A DNA stretch of 25,864 nucleotides. Origin: a virus. Shown here piece by piece: positions 5,171 through 25,864 of this stretch (position 1 is its first letter; the number at the start of each line of letters is the position of its first letter). Location: positions 1-25,864 of the IMG/VR virus record IMGVR_UViG_3300042507_004054; one strand, written 5' to 3'. A model generated the notes under the pieces. That model did not search any database. It worked only from the letters and a program-made list of their open reading frames with translations, and was not told the origin of the DNA. The translations under genes were made by a program, and so were the position numbers.

Positions 5171-6243
5171 TTATCGTCATCCCCATCGGCTCCACCAAGG
5201 AGCGTGAAACCCTGAAGCTGCTCACCGAGGCGATTGTCGCCCTCGGCCCCGTCAGCCAGCCTGTCCTGCTCGCCTCGGTGCCCTCCATGCTGCCGGATGC
5301 CGAAGCCGCCGCCAAGGCTTTGAAGGCCGTCTGCTCATCCGTGGAGGTGGTCAGCACCGAGAACGAGTTCGCCCATGGCTGGTTCAGGGGGCCGAACCGC
5401 ATGTTCCACTGGGTCGTCACGCACCTTGAGGAGAAGGACACCAACCAGCCGTTCCTGTGGCTTGAAGTGGACGCCTGCCCCCTTGTCAAAGGCTGGGCTT
5501 CAAAGCTGGAGAAGGCCTACGAGGACGCCGGGATGCCCCACTTCGGGTTCGTCCGTCCGACCAACCACAAGAACCCAGACGGCAGCATCTACACCAAGCC
5601 GGGGGACAACATGCTTCTGGGCGTGTCGATCTATCCGCCGCACATGCTCAAGAATCCATCTCTGGCTCCGCTGCTGCGCAACCTGTCCATTGAAAGCGAG
5701 AAGGCCCACGCCCCCTACCCGTGGGACATCTACTGCCGGTGGCAGTTTTTCAAGAGGGGCGTCCACTCCACGTTCCTGATCTACGACCGCTGGTGTACGG
5801 TGAAATATAAGCGTGATTTCGGAGCTTTAACCTGCGAACCGCATCCTGACTTCCCGACTGCCCAGGGTGGCGTCATCCCAGCAGGAACGCTGCTCGTCCA
5901 CGGGTGCAAGGACGACACGCTGCACCGGCTGGTCATTGCCGAGAACGCCGTCCCAACAGCCCCGGCGAAGCCTGTTCCACCCCCTCGTCCAGTCAAGATC
6001 AACGTAGTCCCTCCGGCCATCATCCAGCCGCACGAAGGCGGGGCGTCACGGTTCCACAAGATCGTTGACCCCTTGGAGAGGGTGAAGGCCGTCATCAAGG
6101 CCATGAACGACAACAAGATCCCTCCTCGGTTGACACAGGTCGCCAAGGCGGCGAAGCTCGACAAGGCGTTCGCCAAGGAAATCGTCCACAAGCTCGGCTA
6201 CGAAGTCGTGTCCTGGGGAAAACTCGTCACCTCTGAAATCTAA
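5167..6243 (+). CDS. GT-A-like glycosyltransferase with C-terminal extension
   Basis: A 358-residue protein, translationally coupled to the previous gene through ATGA. PFLWLEVDACPLVKGWASKL (E100-V101-D102) is clearly related to PFVWLEADSIPTKAGW of the upstream protein, and both continue with a similar stretch (NMLLGVSIYPPHML versus CTGIGVYGPDAL). The two GT-A-like domains are therefore probably paralogues. Residues up to about 255 form the enzyme-like part. A proline-rich linker (APAKPVPPPRPVKINVVPP) leads to a small basic, helical segment of about 55 residues (ERVKAVIKAMNDNKIPPRL ... KEIVHKLGYEVVSW) that resembles a helix-turn-helix or winged-helix unit. I do not know its role; it may bind nucleic acid or a partner. 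Confidence 0.6.
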   Translation: MIIVIPIGSTKERETLKLLTEAIVALGPVSQPVLLASVPSMLPDAEAAAKALKAVCSSVEVVSTENEFAHGWFRGPNRMFHWVVTHLEEKDTNQPFLWLEVDACPLVKGWASKLEKAYEDAGMPHFGFVRPTNHKNPDGSIYTKPGDNMLLGVSIYPPHMLKNPSLAPLLRNLSIESEKAHAPYPWDIYCRWQFFKRGVHSTFLIYDRWCTVKYKRDFGALTCEPHPDFPTAQGGVIPAGTLLVHGCKDDTLHRLVIAENAVPTAPAKPVPPPRPVKINVVPPAIIQPHEGGASRFHKIVDPLERVKAVIKAMNDNKIPPRLTQVAKAAKLDKAFAKEIVHKLGYEVVSWGKLVTSEI

Positions 6244-6482: not shown

Positions 6483-7036
6483 CCGGGCGTGATGCCTAGC
6501 TTCTCGTCAACCCGCTTGAGCACGTCCAGCGGGATTGAAGCCTTGGAGGCAAGGTCGCATCCGCAGGCGAGGCAGGACTTCCTGTACACGTCCTCGGCGC
6601 GGGGAACCTTCCTGCCACCCATCAGCTCGGTGATCTGCTTCGCCAGCCACCCGCACCCGCCACAACTGATCTGGCCTTTCTGAGGGCAGACGGCGCAGAT
6701 GTCCAGACGGCGGCGGTGCTCCTCCTCGCTCACCAGTTCCGAGCCCTTGCGAAGCTCGTTCATCGTCCCCATGAAGCGTTTGATGTCGCTGCCGGTGAAC
6801 CGCCTCTTGTTGGAGTAGTCCTCATCGACAGGGATCTTCGGGTTGGCTGCAATGACCGCCTGTTCAAGCTCGTCAACCCAGGTGGCCGGGAAGGGGATGT
6901 TGCAAGCCTCCCGGTGGTCGCGGACGCGCTTCACAAAGCCGTTCCAGTTCCAGTCCTGGATTTTGACGCCCGTCTCAGGCTGGACGTATGTCCACATCCC
7001 GGCGACGGGGTGGTTTTTGTTTCGGATGCGCTTCAT
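6449..7036 (-). CDS. Cys-rich, probable zinc-ribbon phage protein
   Basis: A 195-residue protein starting at the ATGA overlap with the giant gene, with GGAG just upstream; a longer start at 7081 lies inside that gene and is less likely. The N-terminal 60 residues (WTYVQPETGVKIQDWNW ... FVKRVRDHREACNIPFP) look like a short module that precedes zinc-ribbon segments in many phage and bacterial proteins. The C-terminal part has cysteines at 114, 117, 125, 128, 155, 158, 160 and 190, in the order CAVC, CGGC, CLACGC and GCW, enough for one or two zinc sites. It is the last gene of the late operon. The function is unknown; binding nucleic acid or assisting assembly are both open. Confidence 0.65.
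   Translation of the reverse strand: MKRIRNKNHPVAGMWTYVQPETGVKIQDWNWNGFVKRVRDHREACNIPFPATWVDELEQAVIAANPKIPVDEDYSNKRRFTGSDIKRFMGTMNELRKGSELVSEEEHRRRLDICAVCPQKGQISCGGCGWLAKQITELMGGRKVPRAEDVYRKSCLACGCDLASKASIPLDVLKRVDEKLGITPGYEPGCWMREG
6470..6487. terminator. Hairpin at the junction of converging genes
   Basis: CCC-A-GGCT, loop CGT, AGCC-GGG forms a seven-pair stem with one bulged A. It spans the stop codon of the 79-residue gene, exactly where the two transcription units meet. There is no T-run on either side, so this is not a classical intrinsic terminator. A bidirectional stop is possible but unproven. Confidence 0.25.
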
Positions 7037-10000
7037 TTTTCTCCGAGGAGTTCGTTCACCTTGTTGACCATGTTGTCCCAAGCCGTCTCATCCTTCTCGG
7101 CGCTTTTTCCCTGGAACGTGGTGCGAACACCCGTGACTCCGAGGCCCATGAGCAGAGCGGCGGTGGCGGGGTCGTCCTGCTGGGACCCCAGGATTTCAAA
7201 AAGCTGAGAAACCTGAAGGGGGATCGGGGCTTTGATGATCTCGCTCTTGATGTCCGTCTTGTTGCCAACAGGGTCTTTGCCAGCAAGCGCATTGATGATG
7301 GACGCCGTGGTAGGGGCGAGCTTGAACCGCAGGAACGAACCAATCAAAGAGTCGCCAGACATGGCCCCGTAACTCGGAGCACCTTTCAGCGGGGAATCCC
7401 TGAACAGGTCGAGCGGGCGGTCTCCTTCACGGAGGGGCTTGAGCTTGCCTTTTGCCGTGACGGTTTCCCCGGTCAGAAGCCTCGTCAGGAACACCAACGG
7501 CTGCTGGAAACCGCCGAGCAGGTCAATCCGGTTGTCATCGTAGCGCAGCTTGCCCGCGTCAGTGGCGCGGAAGTCCAGCTTGATCGGCTCATCATCCTCA
7601 TCCTGACCAAGGGACAGCAGGAGCATGGCGATATACACCCCGAAGATGTACTTGGCGTACTGTTCGGCAATCAAAACCCTAGTCTGAGGAGACGCCCTCC
7701 ACAAAGGGAGTCCGAGAGCCATCGCAAAGCGACTGATGCCGAACCTCGCGGCGAAGATGAACGTGTTCAGGAACGGAGCCGCCTGACTGAGGAGCTGATC
7801 TGCCTTCTTCATCTTGAACACCCCACGACCCGTGGCGTTGTTGATGAGGTTGGCGAGGGACTCAAGGTTCTCCTGCGTGGACTGCTGCGGGGGGCGGAAG
7901 ATGCTCCCTTTAACGAGGCTTTCCTTCAGCACCTTGTAAGAGGTGACGCGGATCACGTCGAGGAGCGTCTTATAGGCACGCTCCGAACCGCGAACAAGAC
8001 CGCCGCCGAGCAGCTTGGGCCACTTAGCCACAAGGCGGGTGGCGTATTGCTCCTCCATCTTGGACAAAGGGGCGTTTGGCCCTGCGTCCATCGCCAGATA
8101 CAGACCGACGCGCTTCAATTCGCCGTCTTGGTATTCAGGTGTGTTGCGGAGGCGTTCCTGAACCTCTTTCTCCCCTTCTTCGGTTCGCATGGCGCGAAGC
8201 ATGTCGGGGATGGCCTTCATGGCGATCCTCGGATTGCTGAACAGAATGAAGTTACCCTGGTTGGCAATGGCAGACAAGTCAGCGGTCGCCGTGATGACGC
8301 GCTGGAGGCTGAACAAATCACCGATGAAGTCGAACGCCTTGCGGAGGCTGGAACGGTTTTTCAACCTCTCCTGAAGCATGATGTCCGCCACACCCATCTT
8401 GGCGTCGTCGAGCCTCTTGAGTTCGGACGCCAGCGCGTCGTTGAACTTGCGGGCTTCCTTGACTTTCGGCTTGTAAGTCCCGTTGCGGAGCTTGTCGGCC
8501 ATGTCCTCGTAATACTTGGTGCGTGTCTCAAGGTATTTGCGGTCGCGCTTGAGCTGCTCCATCACGGGGTCTTTGGCAGCCTCGGCCTTCGCCCTACGCA
8601 GGTCGAACATGACGGAGCGAAGGGAATTACGCTCTGCGCGGAGGTTCCTCAGCTTGGCGTTTTCGGTGAATGAAGGCTCGCGCCTCTTGGCGTCAATCTC
8701 GCCCCTGTTGATACGGTCGTTCAGGTCATTGATCGACTTTTCGGCGGATGCGATGGCGGCGTCCAGGAGGTCTGCCTCGGACTTCGTTTTCTTACCGAAC
8801 CTCTGCTCTTTGACCTCGGCAAGGCGGTCACGAAGAACTTTCTGCCTCGCCTTCAGGCGGATGATCGTCGGGGTGTTCTCAGCCTTTTGAGCAGGCTGAG
8901 GATAGAAGTTCGGGTCTTGAAGCTCCTTGATCTCGGTCTCAAGGCCCTTGATGCTGCGTTCAAGAATCCTCTCGGCACGCTCGTTGATCTCGTCCTGGGT
9001 GAGGTAGGGCTCGCCCTCAATTTCCAGACGGAGTTCGTCCATCGCCTGCTTGAGTGCGTCACGCTCGTTGAGAAGAACCTGAATCTGCTCGTTGATGATC
9101 GGATCAGATTCAGGCTTGGTGATGTCCTTGTTCGCCAGCTTTTGACGAAGGGAGACAATCTCCTTGGCAATCGACTTCATCCGAGCCTTGGCCTTGTCCT
9201 GGAACGACGGCTGCTTCGGCGGGTCAATCTCGTCCAGTTTTGCGCGAAGCACCTTTGCCCGATTTTCAAGGTCGGCGGCTTCGACGTCACGGGTCACTTC
9301 CTTGGTGGACTTGGCGTCACGCTTCTTGGCGGCGATCTGCCTGTCAAGGTCCGCGATGCTGTTCCGCAGCCTGGACTTCACGATGTCGAGGGGCGTCTTG
9401 ACCGCCCGATTGCCTGAGGCCATCTCCAGGCCGTTCTCCTTCATCAGGCGATACAGCTCCTTCTGGGCCGCACGGACGGCATCGGTGGCGGCGTCGCGCT
9501 GCTTGCCCGCACGAAGGGGGGCAATTTTGCGCTGGGCGTCCTCGATCTTGGAGGCGTATTGGGCCAGGGTGCGAAGCTCACGCACCTTCTTGGCAATGTC
9601 GCCGCCAGAAGGGAACAGGGGCCTTCCGTAGCCGGAGAAGCGGTCACGAACTTGACGTTCGGTGACGTCGGGAATCTGCTTCTGAATCTCCTCCGTGACG
9701 GACTTCATCACGTCCTCGACCTTGGTCATCCCCTTCTGCACACGGTCACGCACCATGAGGTAGATGTCACGGGCGGTCACGTCGTCAAAGGTGGCGAAAA
9801 CCTTGTCCTCGTCGGCTTCTTCGACATCGGCTTCCTCGTCGGACTCAGCAGCCTCGGTTTCCTTGCCTTCAGCTATGATGCCCTTCAAGTTGCTGTCGTA
9901 GTACGCCTGCGACGCCTGACGAATTTCTTCGAGCTGGTCATCCGTGTACTCAGTGAACTCAGGGTTTTCACCCCGCATTTCAATCATCCATTGAGCAGCG

Positions 10001-13000
10001 TTGCGGACGCCCTCGGCAATTTTGATCGCCCCGAGAAGAACGTCGTCAAAGGCGTCCAGCAAGGCGTTGAACAGGAAAGGGTCAGCCATGACCTTTTTCC
10101 TTCTTTCGGCGCGACGAGCACGGATCTTTTCTTTCCAGATGGCGAGCGACGATTTCCCTCCCTTTCCTGCCTTGGATGCAACTTTGACAGCCTCTGATGC
10201 CTCTTTGTTGGCCCTCTCAACCGCCTGCAACTCCTTGACGAAATTGGCTTTCATGTAGGCCATCATGTTGTCGATGGTCTCCTGAAGCCTTGCGTTCTCC
10301 TCACGGGCGGAGCGGAGTTCTTCAATTTTCTTCTCGGCGTCCAGGATGGCCTCGCTCAAGGTTCCGAGCTTTTTGGTCTGCTCCTCGTTGGGGGAGACGC
10401 CACCTGACGCCTGACGGAATTTGCGAACCAGACCGTCCTTTGAGAAGTCCTGCTCGATCAGCACGCGCATCAAACGAAGGGCGCGGCCAACGTCGCTGAT
10501 TCCAAGGGGGAGAGCCTGCTGGGCATCGTCGTAACGTGCGACGGCCTTCTGATAGTTGTCCTGAAGGGCTTGATTCTTCGGGTCTGCCGAGGCGGCGTTG
10601 TCGGCCATGTCCACGGCATTGCGACGGTTGGCGATCTCGATGCCCAGGATGGCGATTTCAAGCGAGTTGAGCGACCTCGGACGGGTGTTCACCATGTCCA
10701 CAAGGGCGTCGCCAACCAAGGGGTCTTTCTCAAACTCCTGCATGGCGAGGTCATACATCTGATCGTCGCCAATCGCCTTCTGGATGGGCTGCGCGAGCGG
10801 AGGAAGGCCGAGGCGTTTGCGCTCCTCGTCCATCGCGGAACGGCGCAGATCAACGACCTCGGCGGGACTGGCTTTCCCGGTAGGGGTGACTTTCGGCGTC
10901 TCCTGTTTTGGCTCGGAACGAGCAAGCGGGGGAGCGGCGACAGGTGCATCCGCAGGAGCGGCAGGCGCAACCTCACCCAGCACCTCGTTCACCTTGCTGG
11001 CGTCGTCCATCCCGGCGAACTTGCCGTCGTCCATTTTCTCCGCAACGGCGTAGTCGCGCACAGCGTTGTAAGCTGATTTGAGGTAGGGACGGACAGCTTC
11101 ACCGAATTCTTCAACCATCCTGGCGGAGAAGTCGGCAAAACCTTTGACTCCACCTTCAATGTAGAACCCAGCCTGATACACCGCAGCCTGGAAAAGCTCG
11201 GCGTCAAAGATGGGGACGTTGGCCTGACCGAGCTTACGGCGAAGAACCTTGCTCGCTTCCTTGCTTCCTTCCACGGTGAACAAGGTGTTGGTTGAACCGA
11301 ACGAAGCAGGAAGAGGTTTGGCTTCAGGTGCTTTTTCGCCTCGGATGTCAGCCGTTTCGGTTTTGAATCGCTGGGAAAGTGGGATCACGTTGCCGGACTC
11401 GTCGTAGGTTACTGGGTCGGCGGATTTGAGTTGTGCGGGATCAAAAACGACAACTTCTTCTATTTCTCCATTTTCAGTTGCGGTGAAGGCTGAATCTTTG
11501 CGATGACGTTTCAGTATTTCCAAATCTTTATCAGTGACAAGTATTGGGAAGGATTTGCTTAACCCGTAAATCTCCCTTTGCTCCTGGGCAAAATCAGTTC
11601 CGCTTGCTCCAAAAATGCCAACGGGGTTTAGCATTTTTGCGTAAAGGCGAATGGTTTTCATCCTGGCCTCTGTTGCAGCGTATTTCTCTTTTGAGATTTT
11701 ACGCTCGTATTCCAGCGTGTGCGCAATGTTCGGGCCTTTGCCTCGCGCTTTTTTGTCGAGATACAACTTTTCCGGCTCTAGCCATACACCTTTACCGCTC
11801 CAACCTGCATCGCTGAATGGTCGTTTGTATCCACCCATTTTGAACACAGTAAAGTCGCGGAACGTATGATGAACAAGGGGCAACGATGTGTCGTAATTAG
11901 CCTTCTCCGCCGCCTCATCCGCCATGCGCTGCGCCTTGGCAGCAGCTTCTGGATTGCGCTTAACCCACGCTTCAAAAACAGCCTTTCGTTCGTTTTGGGG
12001 TGAGCTTTTTAGCAGTTGAATTAAACTGTCGTTTCCGTTGTCCCCAGCCTCAACGGCAGCTAGGTATTCGGCGTCTTTCTCCAAGAGCTTTTGAAACTCA
12101 TCGGCCTTGATGGCGTCGTCCATCCCTTCAAACTCGGCGATGTCGCGCACGCCGTTGTAGAGTCCCTTGATGTAGGGGCGGATGCCTTCACCAAACTCCT
12201 TCACCATGCTAGCGGAGAAGTCGGCGATGGAGCGGACGCCTCCTTCGATCAGGAAGCCAGCGTAGTTGGTGGCGGCGGCAAACAGCTCAGGGTCAAACGC
12301 TGGGGCGTTTGTCTGCCCCAGTTTGCGCTTGATGATCTTGCTGGCCTCCTCGGCCTTCTCCTTGGTGAAGATGGTGTTGGTGGAGCCGAACTCGGGTTCC
12401 GAAGGAGTGACAACATCTTCGGGCTTTTTACGCCTATACGTTTTCCAAGTTTTGTCTGTGGGCAACGCCCCGTAAACTTTGCCCCCCATGCGTACCTCGG
12501 CTTCAAATGCCAGCTCTTGAAGTCTCGAAGCGTTTTCTTGAAAAGCTACGGACAGCTTGTCAGTTTTTTTGAAAGTTTGGTCAGGCGTTTCATTTCCACG
12601 CCCTGCTGCGATCATCTCTTCAGTGATCTCGTCGCGCCGCTTACGCAGCTTATCCCTTTCCTTGTTAATCTGACTGTTAGTCAGAGTAGAAGCGTCTGGC
12701 AAAACTTTCTTCTTTTTCGCCAAAGCCGCCCCCGGTTCACCCCCAGGGACGGCCTTCTCAGCCCTTACTTCTTCACCTTCACGGCCCCGCTGTGAAGCTC
12801 CTTCTTGAGCTTCGCCTTCTGGGCGGGTTTGAGGGGGCTGGCCTTGGACAGGAGGAGGCCCACCTGCTTCTTCGACTTGGTTTTGGATGCTGGCATCTTG
12901 GGGTTTTGGGGTTGTGGTTTGGGGGGCCGTCTCGGGTGACGGCAAAGGTGCAGAAAAAGGTTTCGCAAAAGGATTTACCAGCTCAACAGAATAGCCCTCC

Positions 13001-14787
13001 AGAGGTATTTCGGAATATTCTCGTCCTTCAAATTCAACGGGAGGTGAAAACCCTATAACCCAAGAGCCTTTGACTTTTTTTACGGACGAAACCTCACGCT
13101 CATAAGGGCCATAAAAGGTCGTAAATCGAAAATTATCACCAGGCTCTACTTCCTTCGACAGATCAGCATACACTGGGGCTTCGGCTTTTACACGATCTTC
13201 ATTAGCCTGAGCTTCCGTCAAAAGGGCATTATACTGGCGAAACACAACCTTGTCGTCCTCCGACATGTTTTCGAGGAGCTTCTTGGGGATAGCTTCTCTC
13301 TTGTCATTAGCGGCTTGAAACAACTTTCTGATTTCAAAGAGCTTTTGTCCTATGTCTAGGTTGGTCATCCCTTCACCCTGCTCCGTCACCGCCTCCGGCG
13401 CAACAGGTTTTTCTGTTTCTGGAAGAGGTTTTACTTCCTCCGCAGCCCCCGTGACGACCGGAGCCTCTGCAATCGGTGGCTCTGCTGATACAGGCTGCTC
13501 GGGGGCGGCGGTTTGTGTCTCACCTTCGACGGGCAATTCGGCTTGCTGTTCACTGATGGGGGGTGTTTGAGAGACAACGGGCGTCAGTCCTGCTGCTTCA
13601 GGCTCAGCAGGCGCTTCTGGTGCCGGTGCTGGCGGTTGTTCTGACACCACGGGCAGGTCCCGTGATTCCGGCACGACTTGTCGAACGCCCGGCTCTGGCG
13701 ATACGGTTGCTTGCGGCTTCTGCTCATCAGGTGCGGCGGGGGCGATGGGTTCTTCCTTCAGCACCGCAGCGGTGGCTGGCAGCACGTCTGCATTGGCTTC
13801 GACAGCGGCGGTGACTTTCTTCTCCAGCTCGGTGAGAACGGTCGGGAGGGGCATCTTACCGGATTCAACGGTGACTGCCTCGGCGGCGGAGACGGGGGCT
13901 TCTTCTTTCTGAGAAGAAGGCAGCAGAGTGCCGATGCCTCCAACAACACCCCCCGCAACGCCCCCGAGGGCTGCGGCTTCACCAGCACCTTCAAGGATGC
14001 CAGGAGTCTCGATGCCTGCGGGTGCCAACAGCTTTGTGGCTATGTTGCCGCCGACCTGGGCCAAGGATTCTTCCCCAGCCTCGGTGCCGATGGCCTTCAC
14101 AACCCCGCCAGCGCCTTTTTCAAGAGTGTCTCCAAGGAGCTTCCGAACAGGGGCAAGTTCAGTTCCAAGGCCGAACGTGTATTTCTCGGTGAGTCTTTCA
14201 ATCGCCCCACCAAGCAGAGCGCGAGAGTAAGCCGACAGACCTTCCATGCCATACTGTTCGGCGGCCTGACCGCCTTCACGGGCACCACTCAGGAAGCCAG
14301 AACCAAGGAGCGTCCGTCCGGCAAGCTGAGTTCCAGCAGCGGCAGCTTCGGCAGCGCCAAGACCGCGAGCCACAGCAGCGCCTTTGCCGAGAGCGCCTGC
14401 AACACCACCTGTGCCTAGCATACCGATTGCCTGGCCGACAGCCCCAGCGGCTTTCTGGGAGAACTCTTGCTGGTAGGCCGGGTTGACAGGGAGCATCTTT
14501 TCGATGTCCCGCTCAATGTCCGCGCCCACTTCTTTCAGCCCTGGGCCGATGACAGGCTCGGCAAGATAGCCAACACCCCCGATTGCGCCGGGGATGATGG
14601 ACAACGCCCCTCGCCCTGCACTCGACAAAGCGCTGCTGACACGGCTTTGGCCTGTGTCCTCAACTTCCGCCGCCTGGGATTGAGCGACTTGCTGGTAGTA
14701 AAGGGCAAGCTGGCGTGCCCCTTCGACATCCCCCGCAGCATCGGCGTTCTTTAAAGCTGCTGCGATCTGGTCAAGGTTTGCTGTCAT
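7033..14787 (-). CDS. Giant polyvalent virion protein with ART-like segment
   Basis: A 2584-residue protein of the 'large polyvalent protein' type, normally carried in the virion and ejected with the DNA. Residues 1-35 (LKNADAAGDVEGARQLALYY) match a common N-terminal motif of such proteins. About 50-290 is Gly/Ala-rich with hydrophobic stretches; 290-470 is Pro/Glu-rich and probably disordered. Two copies of one module begin at F800 and F1163 (FGSTNTIFT / FGSTNTLFT). Between them, about 965-1135, lies an ADP-ribosyltransferase-like segment (YDTSLPLVHHTFRDFTVF ... EVVVFDPAQLKSADP). About 1330-2140 is long charged coiled coil. About 2140-2560 (RVITATADLSAIANQGNF, GSERAYKTLL, INNATGRGVF) resembles LPD38, a name given from memory. 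I looked for single-subunit RNA polymerase motifs as in N4 and found none. Start ATG is coupled by ATGA to the gene before. Confidence 0.8.
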   Translation of the reverse strand: MTANLDQIAAALKNADAAGDVEGARQLALYYQQVAQSQAAEVEDTGQSRVSSALSSAGRGALSIIPGAIGGVGYLAEPVIGPGLKEVGADIERDIEKMLPVNPAYQQEFSQKAAGAVGQAIGMLGTGGVAGALGKGAAVARGLGAAEAAAAGTQLAGRTLLGSGFLSGAREGGQAAEQYGMEGLSAYSRALLGGAIERLTEKYTFGLGTELAPVRKLLGDTLEKGAGGVVKAIGTEAGEESLAQVGGNIATKLLAPAGIETPGILEGAGEAAALGGVAGGVVGGIGTLLPSSQKEEAPVSAAEAVTVESGKMPLPTVLTELEKKVTAAVEANADVLPATAAVLKEEPIAPAAPDEQKPQATVSPEPGVRQVVPESRDLPVVSEQPPAPAPEAPAEPEAAGLTPVVSQTPPISEQQAELPVEGETQTAAPEQPVSAEPPIAEAPVVTGAAEEVKPLPETEKPVAPEAVTEQGEGMTNLDIGQKLFEIRKLFQAANDKREAIPKKLLENMSEDDKVVFRQYNALLTEAQANEDRVKAEAPVYADLSKEVEPGDNFRFTTFYGPYEREVSSVKKVKGSWVIGFSPPVEFEGREYSEIPLEGYSVELVNPFAKPFSAPLPSPETAPQTTTPKPQDASIQNQVEEAGGPPPVQGQPPQTRPEGEAQEGASQRGREGEEVRAEKAVPGGEPGAALAKKKKVLPDASTLTNSQINKERDKLRKRRDEITEEMIAAGRGNETPDQTFKKTDKLSVAFQENASRLQELAFEAEVRMGGKVYGALPTDKTWKTYRRKKPEDVVTPSEPEFGSTNTIFTKEKAEEASKIIKRKLGQTNAPAFDPELFAAATNYAGFLIEGGVRSIADFSASMVKEFGEGIRPYIKGLYNGVRDIAEFEGMDDAIKADEFQKLLEKDAEYLAAVEAGDNGNDSLIQLLKSSPQNERKAVFEAWVKRNPEAAAKAQRMADEAAEKANYDTSLPLVHHTFRDFTVFKMGGYKRPFSDAGWSGKGVWLEPEKLYLDKKARGKGPNIAHTLEYERKISKEKYAATEARMKTIRLYAKMLNPVGIFGASGTDFAQEQREIYGLSKSFPILVTDKDLEILKRHRKDSAFTATENGEIEEVVVFDPAQLKSADPVTYDESGNVIPLSQRFKTETADIRGEKAPEAKPLPASFGSTNTLFTVEGSKEASKVLRRKLGQANVPIFDAELFQAAVYQAGFYIEGGVKGFADFSARMVEEFGEAVRPYLKSAYNAVRDYAVAEKMDDGKFAGMDDASKVNEVLGEVAPAAPADAPVAAPPLARSEPKQETPKVTPTGKASPAEVVDLRRSAMDEERKRLGLPPLAQPIQKAIGDDQMYDLAMQEFEKDPLVGDALVDMVNTRPRSLNSLEIAILGIEIANRRNAVDMADNAASADPKNQALQDNYQKAVARYDDAQQALPLGISDVGRALRLMRVLIEQDFSKDGLVRKFRQASGGVSPNEEQTKKLGTLSEAILDAEKKIEELRSAREENARLQETIDNMMAYMKANFVKELQAVERANKEASEAVKVASKAGKGGKSSLAIWKEKIRARRAERRKKVMADPFLFNALLDAFDDVLLGAIKIAEGVRNAAQWMIEMRGENPEFTEYTDDQLEEIRQASQAYYDSNLKGIIAEGKETEAAESDEEADVEEADEDKVFATFDDVTARDIYLMVRDRVQKGMTKVEDVMKSVTEEIQKQIPDVTERQVRDRFSGYGRPLFPSGGDIAKKVRELRTLAQYASKIEDAQRKIAPLRAGKQRDAATDAVRAAQKELYRLMKENGLEMASGNRAVKTPLDIVKSRLRNSIADLDRQIAAKKRDAKSTKEVTRDVEAADLENRAKVLRAKLDEIDPPKQPSFQDKAKARMKSIAKEIVSLRQKLANKDITKPESDPIINEQIQVLLNERDALKQAMDELRLEIEGEPYLTQDEINERAERILERSIKGLETEIKELQDPNFYPQPAQKAENTPTIIRLKARQKVLRDRLAEVKEQRFGKKTKSEADLLDAAIASAEKSINDLNDRINRGEIDAKRREPSFTENAKLRNLRAERNSLRSVMFDLRRAKAEAAKDPVMEQLKRDRKYLETRTKYYEDMADKLRNGTYKPKVKEARKFNDALASELKRLDDAKMGVADIMLQERLKNRSSLRKAFDFIGDLFSLQRVITATADLSAIANQGNFILFSNPRIAMKAIPDMLRAMRTEEGEKEVQERLRNTPEYQDGELKRVGLYLAMDAGPNAPLSKMEEQYATRLVAKWPKLLGGGLVRGSERAYKTLLDVIRVTSYKVLKESLVKGSIFRPPQQSTQENLESLANLINNATGRGVFKMKKADQLLSQAAPFLNTFIFAARFGISRFAMALGLPLWRASPQTRVLIAEQYAKYIFGVYIAMLLLSLGQDEDDEPIKLDFRATDAGKLRYDDNRIDLLGGFQQPLVFLTRLLTGETVTAKGKLKPLREGDRPLDLFRDSPLKGAPSYGAMSGDSLIGSFLRFKLAPTTASIINALAGKDPVGNKTDIKSEIIKAPIPLQVSQLFEILGSQQDDPATAALLMGLGVTGVRTTFQGKSAEKDETAWDNMVNKVNELLGEK
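10986..11303 (-). repeat. Module copy 2 inside the giant gene
   Basis: Encodes FGSTNTLFT, KEASKVLRRKLGQ, GFYIEGGVKGFADFSARMV, AVRPYLKSAYNAVRD and GMDDA, parallel to copy 1. The two copies lie on either side of the ADP-ribosyltransferase-like segment, so duplication and insertion may have occurred together. Confidence 0.75.
11383..11895 (-). other. ADP-ribosyltransferase-like segment in AT-richer DNA
   Basis: Codes for residues about 965-1135 of the giant protein. The order is a His in a beta strand (LVHHTFRDFTVF), then GKGVWLEPEKLYL, then a NPVGIFG segment, then an acidic strand EIEEVVVFDPAQLKSAD. This order resembles ART-PolyVal domains of phage polyvalent proteins, which use an H-Y-E type triad to transfer ADP-ribose from NAD. 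The exact catalytic residues cannot be fixed by eye. Counting sixty-base lines at 11461, 11521 and 11641 gives 38-42% GC, clearly below the GC-rich flanks. Confidence 0.5.
12090..12391 (-). repeat. Module copy 1 inside the giant gene
   Basis: Encodes FGSTNTIFT, EEASKIIKRKLGQ, GFLIEGGVRSIADFSASMV, GIRPYIKGLYNGVRD and GMDDA. It matches copy 2 (10986-11303) residue by residue along most of its length. The block resembles a module repeated in other phage polyvalent proteins ('HIEAGARxFxxYAxAMxxDxGDxxxPYLKxxY'). Confidence 0.75.
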
Positions 14788-19068: not shown

Positions 19069-19252
19069 TGGTGGCGATGAGGGGTGAGGGGCCTGGCAGA
19101 ACGGTCACATCAGTCGAGGCAGGCAGGAACCGGAACAGGTCGAAGGCGTTGCGTATCACCTCCTCCGTCCTGTCCATCAGGGCGTCAAACTGAATGGGGT
19201 CATCCTGCTTTCCGAACAGGGCGTCCTCATGCTCTTCCTGCTGCTCGGTCAT
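19058..19252 (-). CDS. Small hypothetical protein, 64 residues
   Basis: A start at 19252 (MTEQQEEHEDALFGKQDDPI) gives the ATGA overlap with the fibre-like gene. The sequence is acidic and helical in the first 45 residues, then ends with FLPASTDVTVLPGPSPLI. A longer frame from 19417 exists but lies entirely within the fibre gene and reads as shadow sequence. Not recognised; tail-fibre assembly help is a possible but unsupported role. Confidence 0.55.
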   Translation of the reverse strand: MTEQQEEHEDALFGKQDDPIQFDALMDRTEEVIRNAFDLFRFLPASTDVTVLPGPSPLIATNDF

Positions 19253-22200
19253 GCGGTGAAGGTGGATGTTGCCCCGACGGTCGGGCTGGTGGCGTTCACT
19301 GCGTTGTAGATGACAGCCCGGTATTGATAGACCTGCCCGACCGTCAGCCCGCTCACCGTGGAGTTGAGCGTGACATTGGAGAAGCCCGAGGTGCTCTGCG
19401 TGGCGGAGGTGAGCCACGTTGTCGAGGCGGACAGCTTGTATTCAAAGTAGGCAACCGCCGTGTCGTGGTTCGCCTTGAACGTTCCGCTCAGGTTCCTCGC
19501 CCCGACGCCCGCCGAGGAGTTACTGCCCGTTGTGCAGGTGGGCAGGCCGACACCGTTGCCGTAGAGCAGGATGGTGTAGGGGTTCTTGGTTCCCGGCACC
19601 GTGGACGAGACGCTCAAGGTGACAGGTCCTCGCTGGTTGGTGCCAGTCGGCGTGAACCTCACTGTCATCGTGGTCGTGCCGCCTGCCGCAAGGGTGGCGG
19701 CGGGGGCGCTGGTGATGCTCCATTCCCCACCGACCGAGGCGGAGATGGATGAAAGCGAGGCATTGCCCGTGTTGCGCAGGGTGAACACCCTGTCTGTGTT
19801 CTGCCCGGGCAGCGTCCCAGGATAGGTGACAGTCCCTCCATCCGCAATCGTGGTGCCGACCGGGTATTCAATCGCCAGATCCGCCACGGGCAGGCTGGAG
19901 AAGGCGACCGTCTCCTCAATGAATGAGGACGAACCATTGTTGCGTCCGCAGGGAACCAAGGCGTATGCGGACAGAGTTCCTGAGATGGGGAGGGATATTC
20001 CAGACAATTCCCATCCCCCGTCAATCCGCGTCCCTTGACCGAGTGTGACCGCCGTGGCCGAGCCTGTCGGGTAGTAACGGAACACGACCTGGGTCGTCTC
20101 AGGCAGCGTTCCTCCCCGCAACCATTGGACGTGCGCGGCGCTGACCACCGAAAGCACGGATGATGTGGCATCATTGTCGTTGTAGAGGCGGGCAAGGTTT
20201 CGCGGGGTTCCCCCTGCAAATGTCATGCCACCGCCTCCTACAAGAACCTTGCCATCCGTCTGCACAGCGAGCCCTATCAGGGTGCCTGACGCATCTGCGA
20301 TAAACGTCCCATCTTCCGCCCCGTCATCCGCAAGCAAGCGGGTAAGCGCCCCCGATGAAGCCGACCGCAGCACAAGAACCTTGGTGTCCGTCTGAACTAT
20401 CGTGCTCAATCCCGTGGACGAGTTTGACGCCGGTACAAAACTTGAATCCAGTGATCCGTCCGTGTTCAAGCGCCGGACAGACGTCGAGGCGTTTGTCGTG
20501 GACACGATGATTTTTCCATCTGCTTGCACGGATATGGTTTGAACCTGCCCCGCAAGCGTAAGCGTGGGGGACGTGAATGACGTGTCAAGCGACCCGTCTG
20601 TGTTCAGACGGACGAGGTAGTACATTGAAGAGCTTCCGTTGACGTAGAAAAGTCCGCCGACGAGTATTTTGTTGTCCTCTTGAAGTGCTATGGAAAGAAC
20701 CACCCCGGTTGTGAAAACGGCGGAGAAAGCCGAGTCAAACGTGCCCGATGACGTCAGCCTTGCCAGATGGGTCGTTCTCCCCCCGATAGCCGTGACGCTT
20801 CCGCCGACATACACACTCCCGTCTGAGGCTGGAACAATGGCGTTGATCCCTGTTCCCGTGGTGCTCAGTGAAAAGGACGAATCCAACGTCCCGTCAGCAT
20901 TCAAACGTGCGATACGAGGCTTCGACACGCCGTGAACAGTGGTGAAAGTTCCCCCGATAAGCGTTTTTCCAGAAGCAAGCAGCGCGTAGCACCTGACGTC
21001 CGCGTTCGCTCCTGAACCTGCTCTCGGCTGAAGGACGGCGCTGCTGTTGAGCTTGGCGTAGCGACCGACAGCAACTGCATTCAAGGTGGTGAAGTTGCCA
21101 AAAGGATATGAGTTGTCCGAAGAATCCGTCGCCAATCCGTTTGCGGTGCTGTTCGCCACAGGCACCCAGGTGTCGTCCAGCGTGCCCGGTCCCGGAGTGG
21201 CTTCACCCGTGATCGTGAAGGTGAACGGGTCTTCGTCAGCATCATCATTGTTAATCGTCACCGTGGCGGTCTTGCTGCCGCTGGTGGTGGGGTCGAACAC
21301 AAGCTGGAACGTGACGGACTGCCCCGGGGCAACCGGCGTGGTAGGCTGGGCTGTCAAAGACCACTGGTTCGCATTCGTGCCCGATATTTGAACATGGTTC
21401 GGGCCGTTGGTCAGGTTCAGGTCGGCCAGACCGACGTTGGAGATTGCCACCGTGATCGGCGTCGTGGTGCCAACCTGCGTGTCGTCAAAGTCAACGGTGC
21501 TCACACCGTCCTCCAGCACCGTGCCGTTGACGGACACCTCGATCTCAGGGTCAACGCTGAAGGAGACGACGGTTTCCTGGATGCCTTCCGAATGCGAGTC
21601 GGTCGTATATGCACGTCCGCGCATAAGTCCTGAAGTCGTCAGGGTCGTGTCAGGCACGAAATCCCAGCCCCCGGCGATGGCGGTCAGGGTTCCTGGAACG
21701 TCCGTGTAGGTCGTGCCGCCGTCCGTGCTCACGGCGAACTCGACCGTCTGCGTCTCCTGCATGGAACCGCCCCGCAGCCAGCGAACGAGGTCGGCGGTGA
21801 TGACGGAGAGGGTGGAGTCGGCCTCATCATTGTAGAGACGGGCGATAAAATTCCTCGCCGTTCCGCCGACCGATGTGAACAGCCCACCAATGATCGTCTT
21901 TCCGTCGCCCTGATTGGCCGTTGCATAGACAAGGGCGTTGGAGTTCGGGTTGTAGGCATCCTCGACAACGAGGTCGGACTGGATGCGGGCGATGCGGTTC
22001 CTCGCCACTGACGCCACCTGCGTGAAAGCACCTGCGACAATCGCCTTCCCGTCCGTCTGCGCCATACCGACGTAGCTGTCGTTGTTGCCGTTGACAGGGG
22101 GATTGACCGCAACGCCGTCCTGGCCCACAACGACGAGGTTCGACCTCGGGTGCTCGTCATACTGCGTGAAGTCACCCCCGGCCATGAGGTTCCCGTTGGA

Positions 22201-22308
22201 GAGGACGGACACCCACCTGCCAGCCGCGTTCAGACCGTAGTCCGGGGCGAAGGAGGTGTCCGTGGTGCCGTCCGAGTTGAGGATGGCGATGCGGTTCGGG
22301 ATGCTCAT
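19249..22308 (-). CDS. Fibre-like delta-60 beta-propeller protein, 1019 residues
   Basis: A probable receptor-binding or fibre protein assembled from secreted-type domains. It starts without signal peptide or virion-anchor domain, inside a propeller: blades 1-3 (residues 1-160, for example NSDGTTDTSF, GKAIVAGAF, GKTIIGGLFTSVGG). Then come an ARLYND ... VRWLRGG module (160-250), a choice-of-anchor-D/Ig-like domain (252-365, ending DEDPFTFTITGEA), seven delta-60 blades (about 370-705), a second ARLYND ... VQWLRGG module (705-805), a second Ig-like domain (809-915) and an Fn3-like C-terminus (930-1019). Delta-60 (DUF5122) and anchor-D domains are known in extracellular proteins of Verrucomicrobia and others; their use in a phage virion is inferred from operon position. 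No ribosome binding site precedes the ATG. Confidence 0.75.
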   Translation of the reverse strand: MSIPNRIAILNSDGTTDTSFAPDYGLNAAGRWVSVLSNGNLMAGGDFTQYDEHPRSNLVVVGQDGVAVNPPVNGNNDSYVGMAQTDGKAIVAGAFTQVASVARNRIARIQSDLVVEDAYNPNSNALVYATANQGDGKTIIGGLFTSVGGTARNFIARLYNDEADSTLSVITADLVRWLRGGSMQETQTVEFAVSTDGGTTYTDVPGTLTAIAGGWDFVPDTTLTTSGLMRGRAYTTDSHSEGIQETVVSFSVDPEIEVSVNGTVLEDGVSTVDFDDTQVGTTTPITVAISNVGLADLNLTNGPNHVQISGTNANQWSLTAQPTTPVAPGQSVTFQLVFDPTTSGSKTATVTINNDDADEDPFTFTITGEATPGPGTLDDTWVPVANSTANGLATDSSDNSYPFGNFTTLNAVAVGRYAKLNSSAVLQPRAGSGANADVRCYALLASGKTLIGGTFTTVHGVSKPRIARLNADGTLDSSFSLSTTGTGINAIVPASDGSVYVGGSVTAIGGRTTHLARLTSSGTFDSAFSAVFTTGVVLSIALQEDNKILVGGLFYVNGSSSMYYLVRLNTDGSLDTSFTSPTLTLAGQVQTISVQADGKIIVSTTNASTSVRRLNTDGSLDSSFVPASNSSTGLSTIVQTDTKVLVLRSASSGALTRLLADDGAEDGTFIADASGTLIGLAVQTDGKVLVGGGGMTFAGGTPRNLARLYNDNDATSSVLSVVSAAHVQWLRGGTLPETTQVVFRYYPTGSATAVTLGQGTRIDGGWELSGISLPISGTLSAYALVPCGRNNGSSSFIEETVAFSSLPVADLAIEYPVGTTIADGGTVTYPGTLPGQNTDRVFTLRNTGNASLSSISASVGGEWSITSAPAATLAAGGTTTMTVRFTPTGTNQRGPVTLSVSSTVPGTKNPYTILLYGNGVGLPTCTTGSNSSAGVGARNLSGTFKANHDTAVAYFEYKLSASTTWLTSATQSTSGFSNVTLNSTVSGLTVGQVYQYRAVIYNAVNATSPTVGATSTFTA

Positions 22309-22317
22309 GTGACGGCT

Positions 22318-22345
22318 ATTTTAAGGCCTCACCGCAGACGGGCAA
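22318..22345 (-). promoter_or_regulatory. Weaker promoter candidate before the fibre-like gene
   Basis: TTGCCC (22345-22340), 16 bases, TAAAAT (22323-22318) on the minus strand. The -10 box is identical to that of the site at 18281-18309 and ends nine bases before the ATG at 22308. Again there is almost no room for a leader. Confidence 0.25.
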
Positions 22346-23249
22346 GCCATAAGTCAAACTCAGGGCAGCGGACTTCTCCGACGTGGTGGTAGGGCAGGAA
22401 GTGAGCGCCAAGGATGGCCGAGCAATACCTCCGCTGGGCTTCCAGGTTGTTCTGGTGCTCGAAAAAGTGCGTCAGACGGGACAGGTCGGAGGCGCATTCA
22501 AAGGTCGCTCCTGATCCCGTGAACGCCCCCGTGCCGAGGGTGGCGACGGGCAGACCGAGCAGGCAGGCCTCCGATGCGCAGGTGGAGTTGACCGTCACCA
22601 TGCCCGAGCACTGGGGGAGGAGTGTCTGGAAATCACCTGACAACGACCACTCGCAGCCATCCGGCGGAGGCAGATCCGCAAACTGCTCGCGCTCACGGGG
22701 ATGGGGGCGAATGAGCACCCCCCTGCTCCTGGGCAGGTGCTCCAGCACCTTGTTGATGGTGAACACCACCTTGTCCCCACGGGGGGACGCCGGGTATTCA
22801 AAGTTAATGTTGCAGTCCTTCCGGCATTGGAGCGTCACCAGAACAGGGCCGTCCGGGGTCCCCCCTGAAAAGGCATCCCACCCAAAATGCCTGCGGGCGA
22901 AATCGCCCAGGTCCACGTCATATGAGGAGTTCCAATGACCAGACACGCGCAGGTTCGACTGCGAGAAGAAGCCACGACTGTCAACGAACGCCCCCGCCTT
23001 CTGGCAAAGGAGGGAGTTCTCGATGTGGAGCACGTTGTTCCCCCAGTTCGTTGTCCAGGAGTGGGGCATCCGGCACTGCCATGTGATGACGTTCGCGGAG
23101 GACTTGAACGCCTCTTTGTAGCTCGCCGTGGACTGCGTGACGTTGTGCCATGCCACCTCCGCTCCTGCGGCTGCGCATCGCCCCTCGATCCAGGGCTTCA
23201 GGTCTGACTTGAGAACGATCTCGGTGACGAGGGCGGACACCTGTTTCAT
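22329..23249 (-). CDS. KpsC/KpsS-like capsule polysaccharide glycosyltransferase
   Basis: A 306-residue GT-B-like protein of the capsule-synthesis type (Capsule_synth). Diagnostic parts are VLVTLQCRKDCNINFEYP, GVLIRPHPREREQFADLP (the RPHPR motif) near residue 180, and MVTVNSTCASEACLLGLPVA with VATLGTGAFTG around 215-245, the usual 'NS-x-x-x-x-EA-L-x-G-x-PV-x-x-LG' donor-binding signature. KpsC and KpsS transfer Kdo residues in bacterial capsule linkers, but sugar specificity here is unknown. It overlaps the GT9 gene by four bases (ATGA). Placement between two fibre genes points to glycan modification of fibres or of the host surface. Confidence 0.72.
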   Translation of the reverse strand: MKQVSALVTEIVLKSDLKPWIEGRCAAAGAEVAWHNVTQSTASYKEAFKSSANVITWQCRMPHSWTTNWGNNVLHIENSLLCQKAGAFVDSRGFFSQSNLRVSGHWNSSYDVDLGDFARRHFGWDAFSGGTPDGPVLVTLQCRKDCNINFEYPASPRGDKVVFTINKVLEHLPRSRGVLIRPHPREREQFADLPPPDGCEWSLSGDFQTLLPQCSGMVTVNSTCASEACLLGLPVATLGTGAFTGSGATFECASDLSRLTHFFEHQNNLEAQRRYCSAILGAHFLPYHHVGEVRCPEFDLWLARLR

Positions 23250-23977
23250 AGGACGATCTTGAGGACTTCCCGAACAGCAAACGCCGGGTCACCCCATGCT
23301 CCTTCAATGTGGTGAACAAATCCGGATTTCTGAGCCTCCATTCTGCCATGGCATCCCTGCTTGTATGACTGCCCTGGGATGACCCCGACAGGCGACCCCC
23401 AAAGGACGATCAAAGGAACCCTGAGCAGGATGGCGAGATGCGCCAAACCGGAGTCCGTTGACACCACGAAGCGGGTTTTGAGCATGTGCGCGGCAATGTC
23501 TCGCAAATCCTCGACGATGGGGATGCCGCAGTCGAAGGACATATCAGCCTTGCCAACCGCCTTGATGGTCAATCCTGACGCCTGAAGGTCATGCGCCATG
23601 AGATTCCACCCTCCCCAGTCACGGTGACCGGAACTGTTCGGTTTCTTCCTTGGCACGGTCAGAACGTCCGTCCTGTCCGCCTGCCTGTCTGGAACCTGCA
23701 CGAAAAACCCTGGGGCCTCTTCGTACTCCCTGCTTATGCGGATGAATTCTGCCCCTGGATATGCACCTTTCAACGTCTCCACGACCGCCCGCTCACCGTG
23801 CCCGTCCAGACGCTCGTCAACATGCACAAAATCCGTGGCAGTCGGGAAAATAAACTCCCACGCCTCGGGGCAGCAGACCGTCAGCCTGTCGCATTTGATG
23901 GACGGCACCCTTCGAGCCTTGAAACTGATTACGTCCCCGAGGCAGAACCTCTCTGGAATCAGAACGACGTGCCTCAT
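23246..23977 (-). CDS. Glycosyltransferase family 9 (heptosyltransferase-like)
   Basis: A 243-residue protein, short for the family (commonly above 300). The N-terminal MRHVVLIPERFCLGDVISF matches the opening strand and 'GD' loop. TRFVVSTDSGLAHLAILLRV near residues 165-185 is a textbook GT9 donor loop with D-SG-x-x-H, followed by PLIVLWGSPVGVIPG. The key Asp and His are present, unlike in the two-domain protein at 3617. The reduced size suggests a trimmed acceptor-binding N-terminal domain. The ATG overlaps the stop of the Ser-Pro-ended fibre gene by four bases, so fibre and enzyme are made in step. Confidence 0.75.
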   Translation of the reverse strand: MRHVVLIPERFCLGDVISFKARRVPSIKCDRLTVCCPEAWEFIFPTATDFVHVDERLDGHGERAVVETLKGAYPGAEFIRISREYEEAPGFFVQVPDRQADRTDVLTVPRKKPNSSGHRDWGGWNLMAHDLQASGLTIKAVGKADMSFDCGIPIVEDLRDIAAHMLKTRFVVSTDSGLAHLAILLRVPLIVLWGSPVGVIPGQSYKQGCHGRMEAQKSGFVHHIEGAWGDPAFAVREVLKIVL

Positions 23978-25864
23978 GGCGTTGGCGACGGAGACGGGCT
24001 AGGTGAAGGGCTCGGGCTGGGAGACGGGGAAGGCGAAGGAGACGGAGAGGGACTTGGCGATGGAGTCGGCGTCGGGGTAGGACTTGGCGAGGGGCTTGGG
24101 CTAGGCGACGGGCTAGGTGACGGACTTGGGCTCGGAGAAGGCGAAGGACTTGGCGACGGACTCGGAGAAGGCGAAGGACTTGGCGACGGACTTGGCGACG
24201 GGGAAGGACTTGGCGACGGGGAAGGACTTGGCGACGGGGAAGGACTCGGGCTAGGAGAAGGTGTCGGACTCGGCGTGGGTGACGGGGTAGGTGAGGCATC
24301 GAACCAATCCCCCACCACAACAACCCTGCCATCATTCAAAATCTGGACGCCATAGACAGACCCCGGGCTGGCGACCGAACCGATCTCACTGGTGAAAGTG
24401 CCGTCCAGGGTGCCGTCGGTGTTCAAACGTGCCAGATACGCCTTGGCCCCTCCGCCGATGTTGAGGAAGTCACCCCCGACAATGACCTTGCCGTCGTCCT
24501 GGATGGCGAGGGCGTTCACATCACCATCCGCGTTCGGGTTGAACCCCGCGTCGATGGCACCCGTGTCATCCACCCGGGCGATGTAGTTCCTTGCGTTCCC
24601 TGCGACCGACGTGAACCCGCCGCCAAGGATGATGCTGCCGTCGTCCTGGATGGCGACACAGTTTACCGTGCTGTTGGTTCCAGGGTTGAACGTGGCATCC
24701 AGGGTGCCGTCGGTTTCAAGCCGGGCGATGTAGGCCCTGGAGCCACCGGCAATCGTGCCGAACTGACCGCCGACAACGGCCTTGCCATCGGGCTGAATCG
24801 CCACGGCGAACACCGCCCCGTCGGCGTTCGGATTGTAGGCCAGGTCAACGGCCCCCGGCGCTGTCGGGCTTTGGGAAACGCCCGTCAGATTGACCGTGAA
24901 GGGGTTCTCGTCGGCGTCCGTGCTGGTGATGGACAACGTGGCGGTGCGCGTGTCCGTGCTGCTGGAGTTCACCACCGGGTCAAAGGTGACGGTGAAATCC
25001 ACATACGCCCCTGCCGCAAGCTCAGTCACCGTGATTGGCACCGAGAACGTGTAGTCCTCAGCGTTTGACCCTGTGATGCTGCCCGCAATGCTGCGAAGCG
25101 TGGTGTTGCCGACATTACGCAGGCGAAACACCTTGTCCGCGCTGCCTGTGGTGACGGTGCCGAAGTTGATCGTGCTTGACCCGTCAACAAGGATGGTTCC
25201 GGCAGGTTGTTCGACCTGAATCTCGGGGGCGACCCCGATACCCGTCAAAACGATGTTGTATGGGCTGGATGGATCGTTTGACACGATCGGCAGTGTGGTC
25301 GTCTTGCTTCCAATGGACGTTGGGTTGAATTGAACGGTAAACTCAAACGTGCTGCCGGGAGAAAGCGTCGTCGGCATCGCACTGATCGTGAACATGCCGG
25401 AGTCCCCTCCACTAGGTATAGCCGAAAAATTTTGAAGGGTTTCAAGGCCAACGCTGTTGAGCGCCAAAGTCACCGAGATCGACGAACCCACTTCCGCAGA
25501 GCCTACGGCTAGGGTGTTGTTCGGCGGGCTTGAGGGGATTTCTTGACCGCCCTGCGTCACCAGAAGCTCAGGCGAAGGCTCCGCAAGGCAGATGCAGATG
25601 TTGGAGATGACTCCGCCACGGCTGACCCGTGCGTAGTAGACCTGCCCTCTCACCGCGCCAATTACTGGAGTGCTGGTGCCCGTCACCGTGAGGTTCTGGT
25701 ATCCTGTCAGGAAGTTCCCAGCGAACGTCGGGTCAGTGGACACGTCGAGCTTGATCGTGCCTGCGGGCACCGTGCTCGCAATCGCCCACGTCAGGGTGAA
25801 CGTCGTAGAGGTCGCCGATGTCTGACGAAGGGTGATGCCCGTAGCCACGCCCGTCGTGCTGGGG
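23974..25864 (-). CDS. Fibre-like protein with Ser-Pro tail (5' end outside window)
   Basis: The frame is open through the right edge. A GTG at 25848 exists, but the codons above it continue a beta domain, so the true start is probably upstream. Counting from 25848: Fn3-like domain (1-88, ending VYYARVSRGG), choice-of-anchor-D/Ig-like domain (92-205), a second one (208-325, ending DENPFTVNLTGVS), four delta-60 blades (about 330-517: GKAVVGGQF, GSIILGGGFTSVAG, GKVIVGGDF, GRVVVVGDWFDA), then 53 Ser/Thr-Pro pairs to the stop. No C-terminal tip or trimerisation domain is present, odd for a fibre. Location upstream of the late genes suggests virion attachment through the missing N-terminus (inference). 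Confidence 0.7.
   Translation of the reverse strand, partial: PSTTGVATGITLRQTSATSTTFTLTWAIASTVPAGTIKLDVSTDPTFAGNFLTGYQNLTVTGTSTPVIGAVRGQVYYARVSRGGVISNICICLAEPSPELLVTQGGQEIPSSPPNNTLAVGSAEVGSSISVTLALNSVGLETLQNFSAIPSGGDSGMFTISAMPTTLSPGSTFEFTVQFNPTSIGSKTTTLPIVSNDPSSPYNIVLTGIGVAPEIQVEQPAGTILVDGSSTINFGTVTTGSADKVFRLRNVGNTTLRSIAGSITGSNAEDYTFSVPITVTELAAGAYVDFTVTFDPVVNSSSTDTRTATLSITSTDADENPFTVNLTGVSQSPTAPGAVDLAYNPNADGAVFAVAIQPDGKAVVGGQFGTIAGGSRAYIARLETDGTLDATFNPGTNSTVNCVAIQDDGSIILGGGFTSVAGNARNYIARVDDTGAIDAGFNPNADGDVNALAIQDDGKVIVGGDFLNIGGGAKAYLARLNTDGTLDGTFTSEIGSVASPGSVYGVQILNDGRVVVVGDWFDASPTPSPTPSPTPSPSPSPSPSPSPSPSPSPSPSPSPSPSPSPSPSPSPSPSPSPSPSPSPSPSPSPSPSPSPTPTPTPSPSPSPSPSPSPSPSPSPSPSPSPSPTP
23977..24294 (-). 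repeat. Hexanucleotide tract coding 53 Ser/Thr-Pro dipeptides
   Basis: Exactly 106 codons of [Ser or Thr]-Pro end the fibre-like gene and stop directly at TGA. The six-base unit, with larger repeated blocks, is prone to length change by slippage. Every gain or loss of one unit keeps the frame, so the tail length could vary between particles' genomes without breaking the gene. Confidence 0.95.

Follow-up and report, generated by a model that had tools for sequence, protein, structure and literature searches.

A conserved split propeller in phage fibre genes hosts an exchangeable, probably glycan-bearing tail cassette

Sec13 and Seh1 are incomplete propellers that are completed by the domain-invasion blade of Nup145C, Sec31 or Nup85 (PMC8907234). 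In designed propellers, the 2+2 blade is the least stable closure, and it is rare in nature (PMC8458387). Propellers also occur in the receptor-binding proteins of phages, including phi11 RBP (five blades), PRD1 P2 and phiKZ gp131C (seven blades) (PMC4901313). The virions of some mycobacteriophages are glycosylated, with C-terminal glycans on virion proteins that act as a shield (Freeman et al. 2023, cited in PMC12619734); to our knowledge, these virions have no Ser/Thr/Pro tail module.

The locus described here belongs to a 25,864-base virus record, the whole of which is called the window below. Its two fibre genes had been proposed, from the sequence alone, to be one long protein split inside a seven-blade propeller. 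The coordinates and gene order of that original prediction for positions 19249-25864 held when compared with the ORFs and the sequence (Table 1). Its finding is confirmed and turns out to be larger: a propeller whose conserved split is shown hosts a tail cassette whose exchange is also shown, and the docking of the two halves and the glycosylation of the tail are inferred. DUF5122/delta-60 repeats (PF17164) are present in tandem in both fibres (E 8e-60 and 9e-34; 199 and 116 bits, cut-off 27), and Pfam also finds HYDIN-type Ig domains in both. The homologues of the upstream fibre have an extra anchor of about 440 aa beyond the truncated 5' end of the window gene. Elsewhere in the window, positions 1113-3035 (+) match the terminase large subunit (PHROG 2), and a 2584-aa ORF at 7033-14787, matched in PHROG by DarB-like antirestriction proteins and endolysins, is likely to encode a giant injected or internal virion protein. 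Two long ORFs of 540 and 445 aa overlap on opposite strands (3548-5170 (+) and 3830-5167 (-)), and probably just one of them is a gene.

Table 1. Features of the split fibre locus, in positions of the window
Feature	Position (strand)	Basis and remarks
Upstream fibre gene	23974..25864 (-)	5' end runs off the contig
Two HYDIN/ASH-type Ig domains before the split propeller	24856..25530 (-)	PF15780, PF22544; boundaries approximate
Upstream half-propeller	24298..24849 (-)	D strand for closure, blades 1-3 complete, first part of blade 4 (strands A and B); repeat HMM, AF2 strands
Ser/Pro/Thr tail	23977..24294 (-)	106 aa, 100% S/T/P; low confidence in AF2
Cassette gene 1, GT9-like glycosyltransferase	23246..23977 (-)	PF01075, 23.3 bits vs cut-off 22
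Cassette gene 2, capsule-synthesis-type glycosyltransferase (Capsule_synth)	22329..23249 (-)	PF05159, 33.5 bits vs cut-off 20
Downstream fibre gene	19249..22308 (-)	1019 aa; without anchor
Downstream half-propeller	21820..22308 (-)	Second part of blade 4 (strands C and D), blades 5-6 complete, strands A to C of blade 7; repeat HMM, AF2
WLRGG module after the split propeller	21559..21819 (-)	Sequence, as after bacterial propellers; boundaries approximate
HYDIN-type Ig between the two propellers	21199..21546 (-)	PF22544, residues 270-368; boundaries approximate
Second propeller, intact, seven blades	20164..21183 (-)	Pfam, AF2, repeat HMM
Second WLRGG module	19894..20163 (-)	Sequence; boundaries approximate
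C-terminal Ig and FN3-like beta domains	19252..19881 (-)	AF2, weak Pfam

A precise and conserved split

Scans of viral contigs retrieved nine relatives with an identical junction (L005, L009, L010, L013, L015, L016, L021, L030 and L056), coming from at least eight metagenomes. In these relatives the upstream protein ends in V[VI]G.W[FSY]D (the half-propeller of the window ends in VVVVGDWFD), followed by a tail of about 90-150 residues, and the downstream protein, whose gene always carries a start codon of its own, begins with M(S)IP.(R/S)IA..NS[DN]GTTD. The identities of the upstream and downstream halves are correlated across phages (Mantel r 0.86, p 1e-4), and purifying selection acts on both (dN/dS 0.03-0.15). 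The split is a real and precise one, and it is conserved; since nine relatives from this range of metagenomes are broken in the same loop, an artefact and a recent insertion are both ruled out. Relatives in which the two genes were unrelated and never fused would have refuted the original prediction, and none of the nine is of this kind, as all of them carry the same split at the same loop. The proposal that an insertion split a fibre is thus supported in a modified form, the insertion being old and common to the whole clade. No intact extra copy of the propeller was found in the six records of 46-66 kb, which hold just the two halves.

The position of the break was studied with a 50-position repeat HMM built from bacterial proteins alone. 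In all ten phages, the upstream half is made up of three full repeats followed by the A and B strands of a fourth, and the first match of the downstream half begins at position 30-31 of 50, which corresponds to strand C (E 1e-5 in the window). Two repeats follow in the downstream halves, and then a last one that breaks off at position 37-41. Seven repeats, of which the last is cut at 36-40, make up the intact units of an Opitutae protein (L101) and of another phage fibre (L191). Because the repeat positions of the two halves are complementary and match those of the intact units, the two genes tile one seven-blade unit cut within blade 4. All that the halves lack between them is about eight residues of the loop, and their combined length (185 + ~175 = 360 residues) compares with mostly 350-365 residues in unsplit bacterial units, counted from the closing strand to the WLRGG module. 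According to the strand bookkeeping (HMM and AF2), each chain is without strands which the other supplies: the first propeller is not a closed single-chain unit of seven repeats (3.5 + 3.5 in two chains), and the second propeller of the downstream chain is. The blade count of the original prediction (four plus three) was therefore right in its total of seven but not in its division, as the break falls within blade 4, between strands B and C. The intact seven-blade propeller that it placed in the downstream protein held (AF2, repeat HMM); the shared minus-strand frame that it reported is true in the window but incidental, both halves being in one frame in only 5 of the 10 phages.

Unsplit versions of this architecture exist outside the clade. 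The order Ig, seven-blade propeller and WLRGG is common in bacterial proteins, mostly from Verrucomicrobiota, and one of them (L124) contains four such units of seven repeats each. The best matches among the Verrucomicrobiota delta-60/HYDIN-Ig proteins are 43-50% identical to the upstream half. The search for an unsplit homologue in phages, which had been suggested as a check of the split, found none among the ten phages of the clade. It did find an unsplit seven-repeat fibre in a different phage, where L191:3474-5699 encodes a DUF5122 propeller in one chain with no cassette visible. In L022, L025, L026, L095 and L099, which are more distant members of the phage group, the related anchor belongs to a single propeller-less fibre. 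Isolated phages yielded no match to the 317-aa structural protein, the fibre anchor or the L199 GT2, and the lack of a match for the first of these makes the clade appear uncultured; near-DNA matches to cultured phages were rejected, as they are short stretches in unrelated baseplate genes. A search for the 317-aa protein in 388 genomes (the phylum of an Opitutae genome) returned just two weak matches (E 3e-12 and 7e-4) and, since neither of them adjoins a propeller fibre, the host is not established.

The tail and its enzyme genes

Throughout the clade, the break is filled by a Ser/Thr/Pro tail of 90-150 residues and two to three sugar-enzyme genes. The Ser-Pro tail and two glycosyltransferase genes of the original prediction held in the window, where the enzymes are a GT9 and a capsule type. 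The gap contains a FkbM methyltransferase protein and a GT2 in L005 and L021, two GT2 in L009, a GT2, a methyltransferase-like gene and another GT2 in L056, a small enzyme (a methyltransferase where recognised) and a GT2 in L015, L016 and L030, and a GT8 with a methyltransferase/sialyltransferase-like fusion in L010 and L013. Across cassettes, the enzymes thus comprise GT2, GT8, GT9, GT29-like, FkbM and other methyltransferases; the phage-encoded glycosyltransferases (GT9, Capsule_synth, GT2, GT8 and GT29-like) are above or near the cut-off. No relative of the 306-aa window enzyme was found among the viral contigs. The S/T/P content of the tails ranges from 68 to 100%, and the window tail uses all six Ser and all four Pro codons. 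Because these codons are diverse, the tail is kept as protein, and the possibility that it is a young DNA repeat was rejected. The enzyme genes start within a few bases of the tail stop codon, often overlapping it; in the window, ATGA overlaps link the upstream fibre stop to cassette gene 1 and cassette gene 1 to cassette gene 2. In L010 (3726-4338) and L013 (5301-5912), about 610 bases without a conserved ORF separate the last enzyme gene from the downstream fibre gene, so translational coupling is not universal. This gap was considered as a decayed GT2, for which tblastn gave no match.

The cassette is exchanged as a block between near-identical phages. Between L010 and L009, identity is 89% as far as base 1495, where the half-propeller has its last codon, and no similarity is seen from there to 4345, the downstream start. 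The flanks of L005 and L030 are 92-93% identical, the tail end and the first enzyme gene are unalike, and similarity resumes at the GT2 start. The four phage pairs that have the same first enzyme gene all share the tail type (4/4, permutation p 0.002), and the members of these pairs are not neighbours on the fibre trees, except for L010 joining L013 on the downstream tree. Since the tail type goes with the first enzyme against the fibre trees, the tail belongs to the enzymes and not to the fibre. What was first described as a filler of the break is thus better seen as a cassette, found in other places too and swapped as one unit.

The halves themselves can also change partners. The trees of the upstream and downstream halves disagree for L010, whose upstream half groups with L009 and whose downstream half and cassette group with L013. 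A natural recombination near the tail swapped one propeller half in this phage, and the conflict between its half trees suggests that partners are exchangeable between related phages.

Cassette-type GT2 genes are widespread. A sense-strand S/T/P run is present within 3.5 kb upstream in 14 of 41 non-redundant loci of this type, compared with 4 of 252 background windows (Fisher p 3e-10, or 8e-6 without the split clade); at the same 41 loci, no run was found in antisense (0/41) or downstream (0). The enzymes are genetically tied to a hydroxyl-rich tail. Short Ser/Thr/Pro-tailed proteins also stand directly before sugar-enzyme genes of the same kinds at L199:4082-4750, L200:4322-4834 and L201 ~4965-5430, the last of them with a TTEEP tail before a relative of the L015 enzyme. 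These three contigs have no propeller, and their tail-enzyme packages sit upstream of conserved structural genes in the same stretch.

Docking of the halves and alternative readings

The complementation of the halves was approached by structure prediction. In a linked AF2 model, the in-frame read-through of the window served as a long disordered linker, with stops read as residues; this is a device, and no read-through is claimed. Both halves are ordered in this model (pLDDT mostly 72-96) and form seven A-B-C strand sets; strand C of blade 4 is formed where the downstream half starts (residues 854-857, pLDDT ~81). The pTM is 0.44 with two thirds of the chain disordered; around 0.3 would be expected for two undocked halves, a value that is only a rough estimate. 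When the downstream protein is predicted alone, residues 1-30 have a pLDDT of 55-68 and strand C is missing, residues 31-170 have fair confidence and the second propeller has its seven strand sets. Foldseek aligned about one half of the linked model at a time, the linker blocking one alignment across both. Self-contained propellers in each protein would have refuted the original prediction, and this is not what is seen for the N-terminal propeller, where strand C needs the presence of the upstream half to be ordered. The models favour complementation, though there is no structure of the complex and the closure of the ring is inferred from strand assignment, pLDDT and pTM. The earlier suggestion that the halves refold as a complemented propeller is thus supported, their physical joining remaining a prediction. 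It seems likely that they dock in trans into one propeller, an inference with indirect AF2 support.

Taken as a whole, the reading in which two chains complement into one propeller and show an exchangeable, probably glycosylated tail is preferred, if by a modest margin. The conserved split, the strand complementarity, the selection on both halves, the block swapping and the tail-enzyme association on which it rests are shown; the following steps are proposed. An ancestral single-chain fibre (anchor, Ig, Ig, propeller, module, Ig, propeller, module) would now be made of two chains. The upstream chain would anchor the fibre; it would contribute blades 1-3, the D strand that closes the ring and the first two strands (A-B) of blade 4, whose other two (C-D) would come from the downstream chain together with blades 5-6 and the A-C strands of blade 7. 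Because neither half closes alone, they would complement into one seven-bladed ring in which blade 4 is shared 2+2 between the chains and blade 7 is closed 3+1, and the downstream fibre would be held on the virion through this shared ring. As 2+2 blades are the least stable closure in designs (PMC8458387), one formed between two chains would need special stabilisation, and the conservation of so rare a closure deserves attention. The free tail would project from blade 4 at its broken B-C loop, and the adjacent glycosyl- and methyltransferases would build a glycan on it as it is made. The split of the chain would let the phage change the tail and its matching enzymes in one recombination step, leaving the fibre undisturbed. 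The composition of the tail, its adjacency to the enzyme genes, the co-swapping and the recurrence are the grounds for inferring its glycosylation, which is moderately likely; a glycan has so far not been observed. A role in host contact or shielding is likewise inferred. In a bolder reading, as likely to be wrong as right, the hydroxyl-rich tail and its own sugar and methyl transferases would form a portable mucin-like display module, for which the propeller broken within a blade is a permanent docking site, and the type of glycan would be exchangeable in one recombination with the fibre intact.

The alternative that survives best concerns the enzymes. It remains possible that they target the host surface or other glycans instead (superinfection exclusion, receptor masking) and that the tail serves merely as a flexible spacer or as a hot spot for recombination. 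There are known cases of phage glycosyltransferases that modify the host serotype and DNA (reviewed in PMC12619734), recombination can be mediated by the low-complexity DNA of the tail, and the swap between L005 and L030 begins within the tail. Nevertheless, the tail type tracks the enzyme and not the backbone, distant phages with a different protein body carry sense-strand S/T/P runs upstream of GT2, the enzyme genes begin at or a few bases from the tail stop codon, and the tail codons are diverse.

A second alternative is an old gene fission after which the proteins no longer meet, each half being stabilised separately (for example, by self-pairing) in different places of the virion. Designed and lectin propeller fragments can indeed self-assemble (PMC8458387, PMC4735018), and the downstream halves alone keep fair AF2 confidence over residues 31-170. 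Yet the halves are exactly complementary (D+ABCDx3+AB and CD+ABCDx2+ABC) and not self-matching: two upstream halves together would miss strand C and have a surplus D. Since the boundary is also kept in 10/10 phages, AF2 leaves strand C unordered unless the upstream half is included, and the downstream protein has no anchor of its own, this scenario is unlikely.

It is less likely still that the halves are joined at translation into one continuous protein by frameshift, stop read-through or ribosome bypass. The halves of the window are in the same frame, but this is so in only 5/10 phages, and the intervening 1.7 kb of the window holds 19 in-frame stops, on which grounds read-through and frameshift were rejected; moreover, the enzyme genes are ORFs themselves, overlapping by ATGA, and the downstream gene has its own start codon everywhere. 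Finally, although the tails are of low complexity and two contigs (L076 and L082) end within the tail, a misassembly at a low-complexity repeat and the recent disruption of a gene by an insertion are all but excluded by the same junctions in ten phages from at least eight metagenomes and by the purifying selection on both halves.

Comparison with known systems

No paper describing a split phage propeller or a tail-plus-enzyme module was found in the literature searched, the coverage of which was partial. If the preferred reading of two complementing chains is true, this would be a natural propeller built from two unlike half-rings sharing a 2+2 blade, the closure worst tolerated in designs, and swapping a glycan-bearing tail together with its decorating enzymes would be a new route to variation of the virion surface in phages. 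The Verrucomicrobiota delta-60/HYDIN-Ig proteins (e.g. L101 and L124) share the order of Ig, seven-blade DUF5122 propeller and WLRGG with the phage pair, but they are unsplit, cellular and without a cassette. Like phi11 RBP, PRD1 P2 and phiKZ gp131C, the phage fibre has a propeller in a host-contact protein; those proteins are nevertheless single chains of other propeller families, with no tail or enzyme cassette. The glycans of mycobacteriophages are found on the capsid and tail tube, and no split propeller is involved. In Sec13 and Seh1 the ring is also closed by a second polypeptide, there in a stable complex. However, they receive one missing blade, whereas the phage ring would be made of two equal halves with one 2+2 blade and a gene cassette in the gap, and no sequence kinship between them is claimed. 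The fragments of tachylectin-2, Pizza and Cake (PMC4735018, PMC8458387) are likewise part-propellers that assemble into full rings, but they are laboratory homo-oligomers of repeats, while the phage case concerns natural, unlike halves kept by selection.
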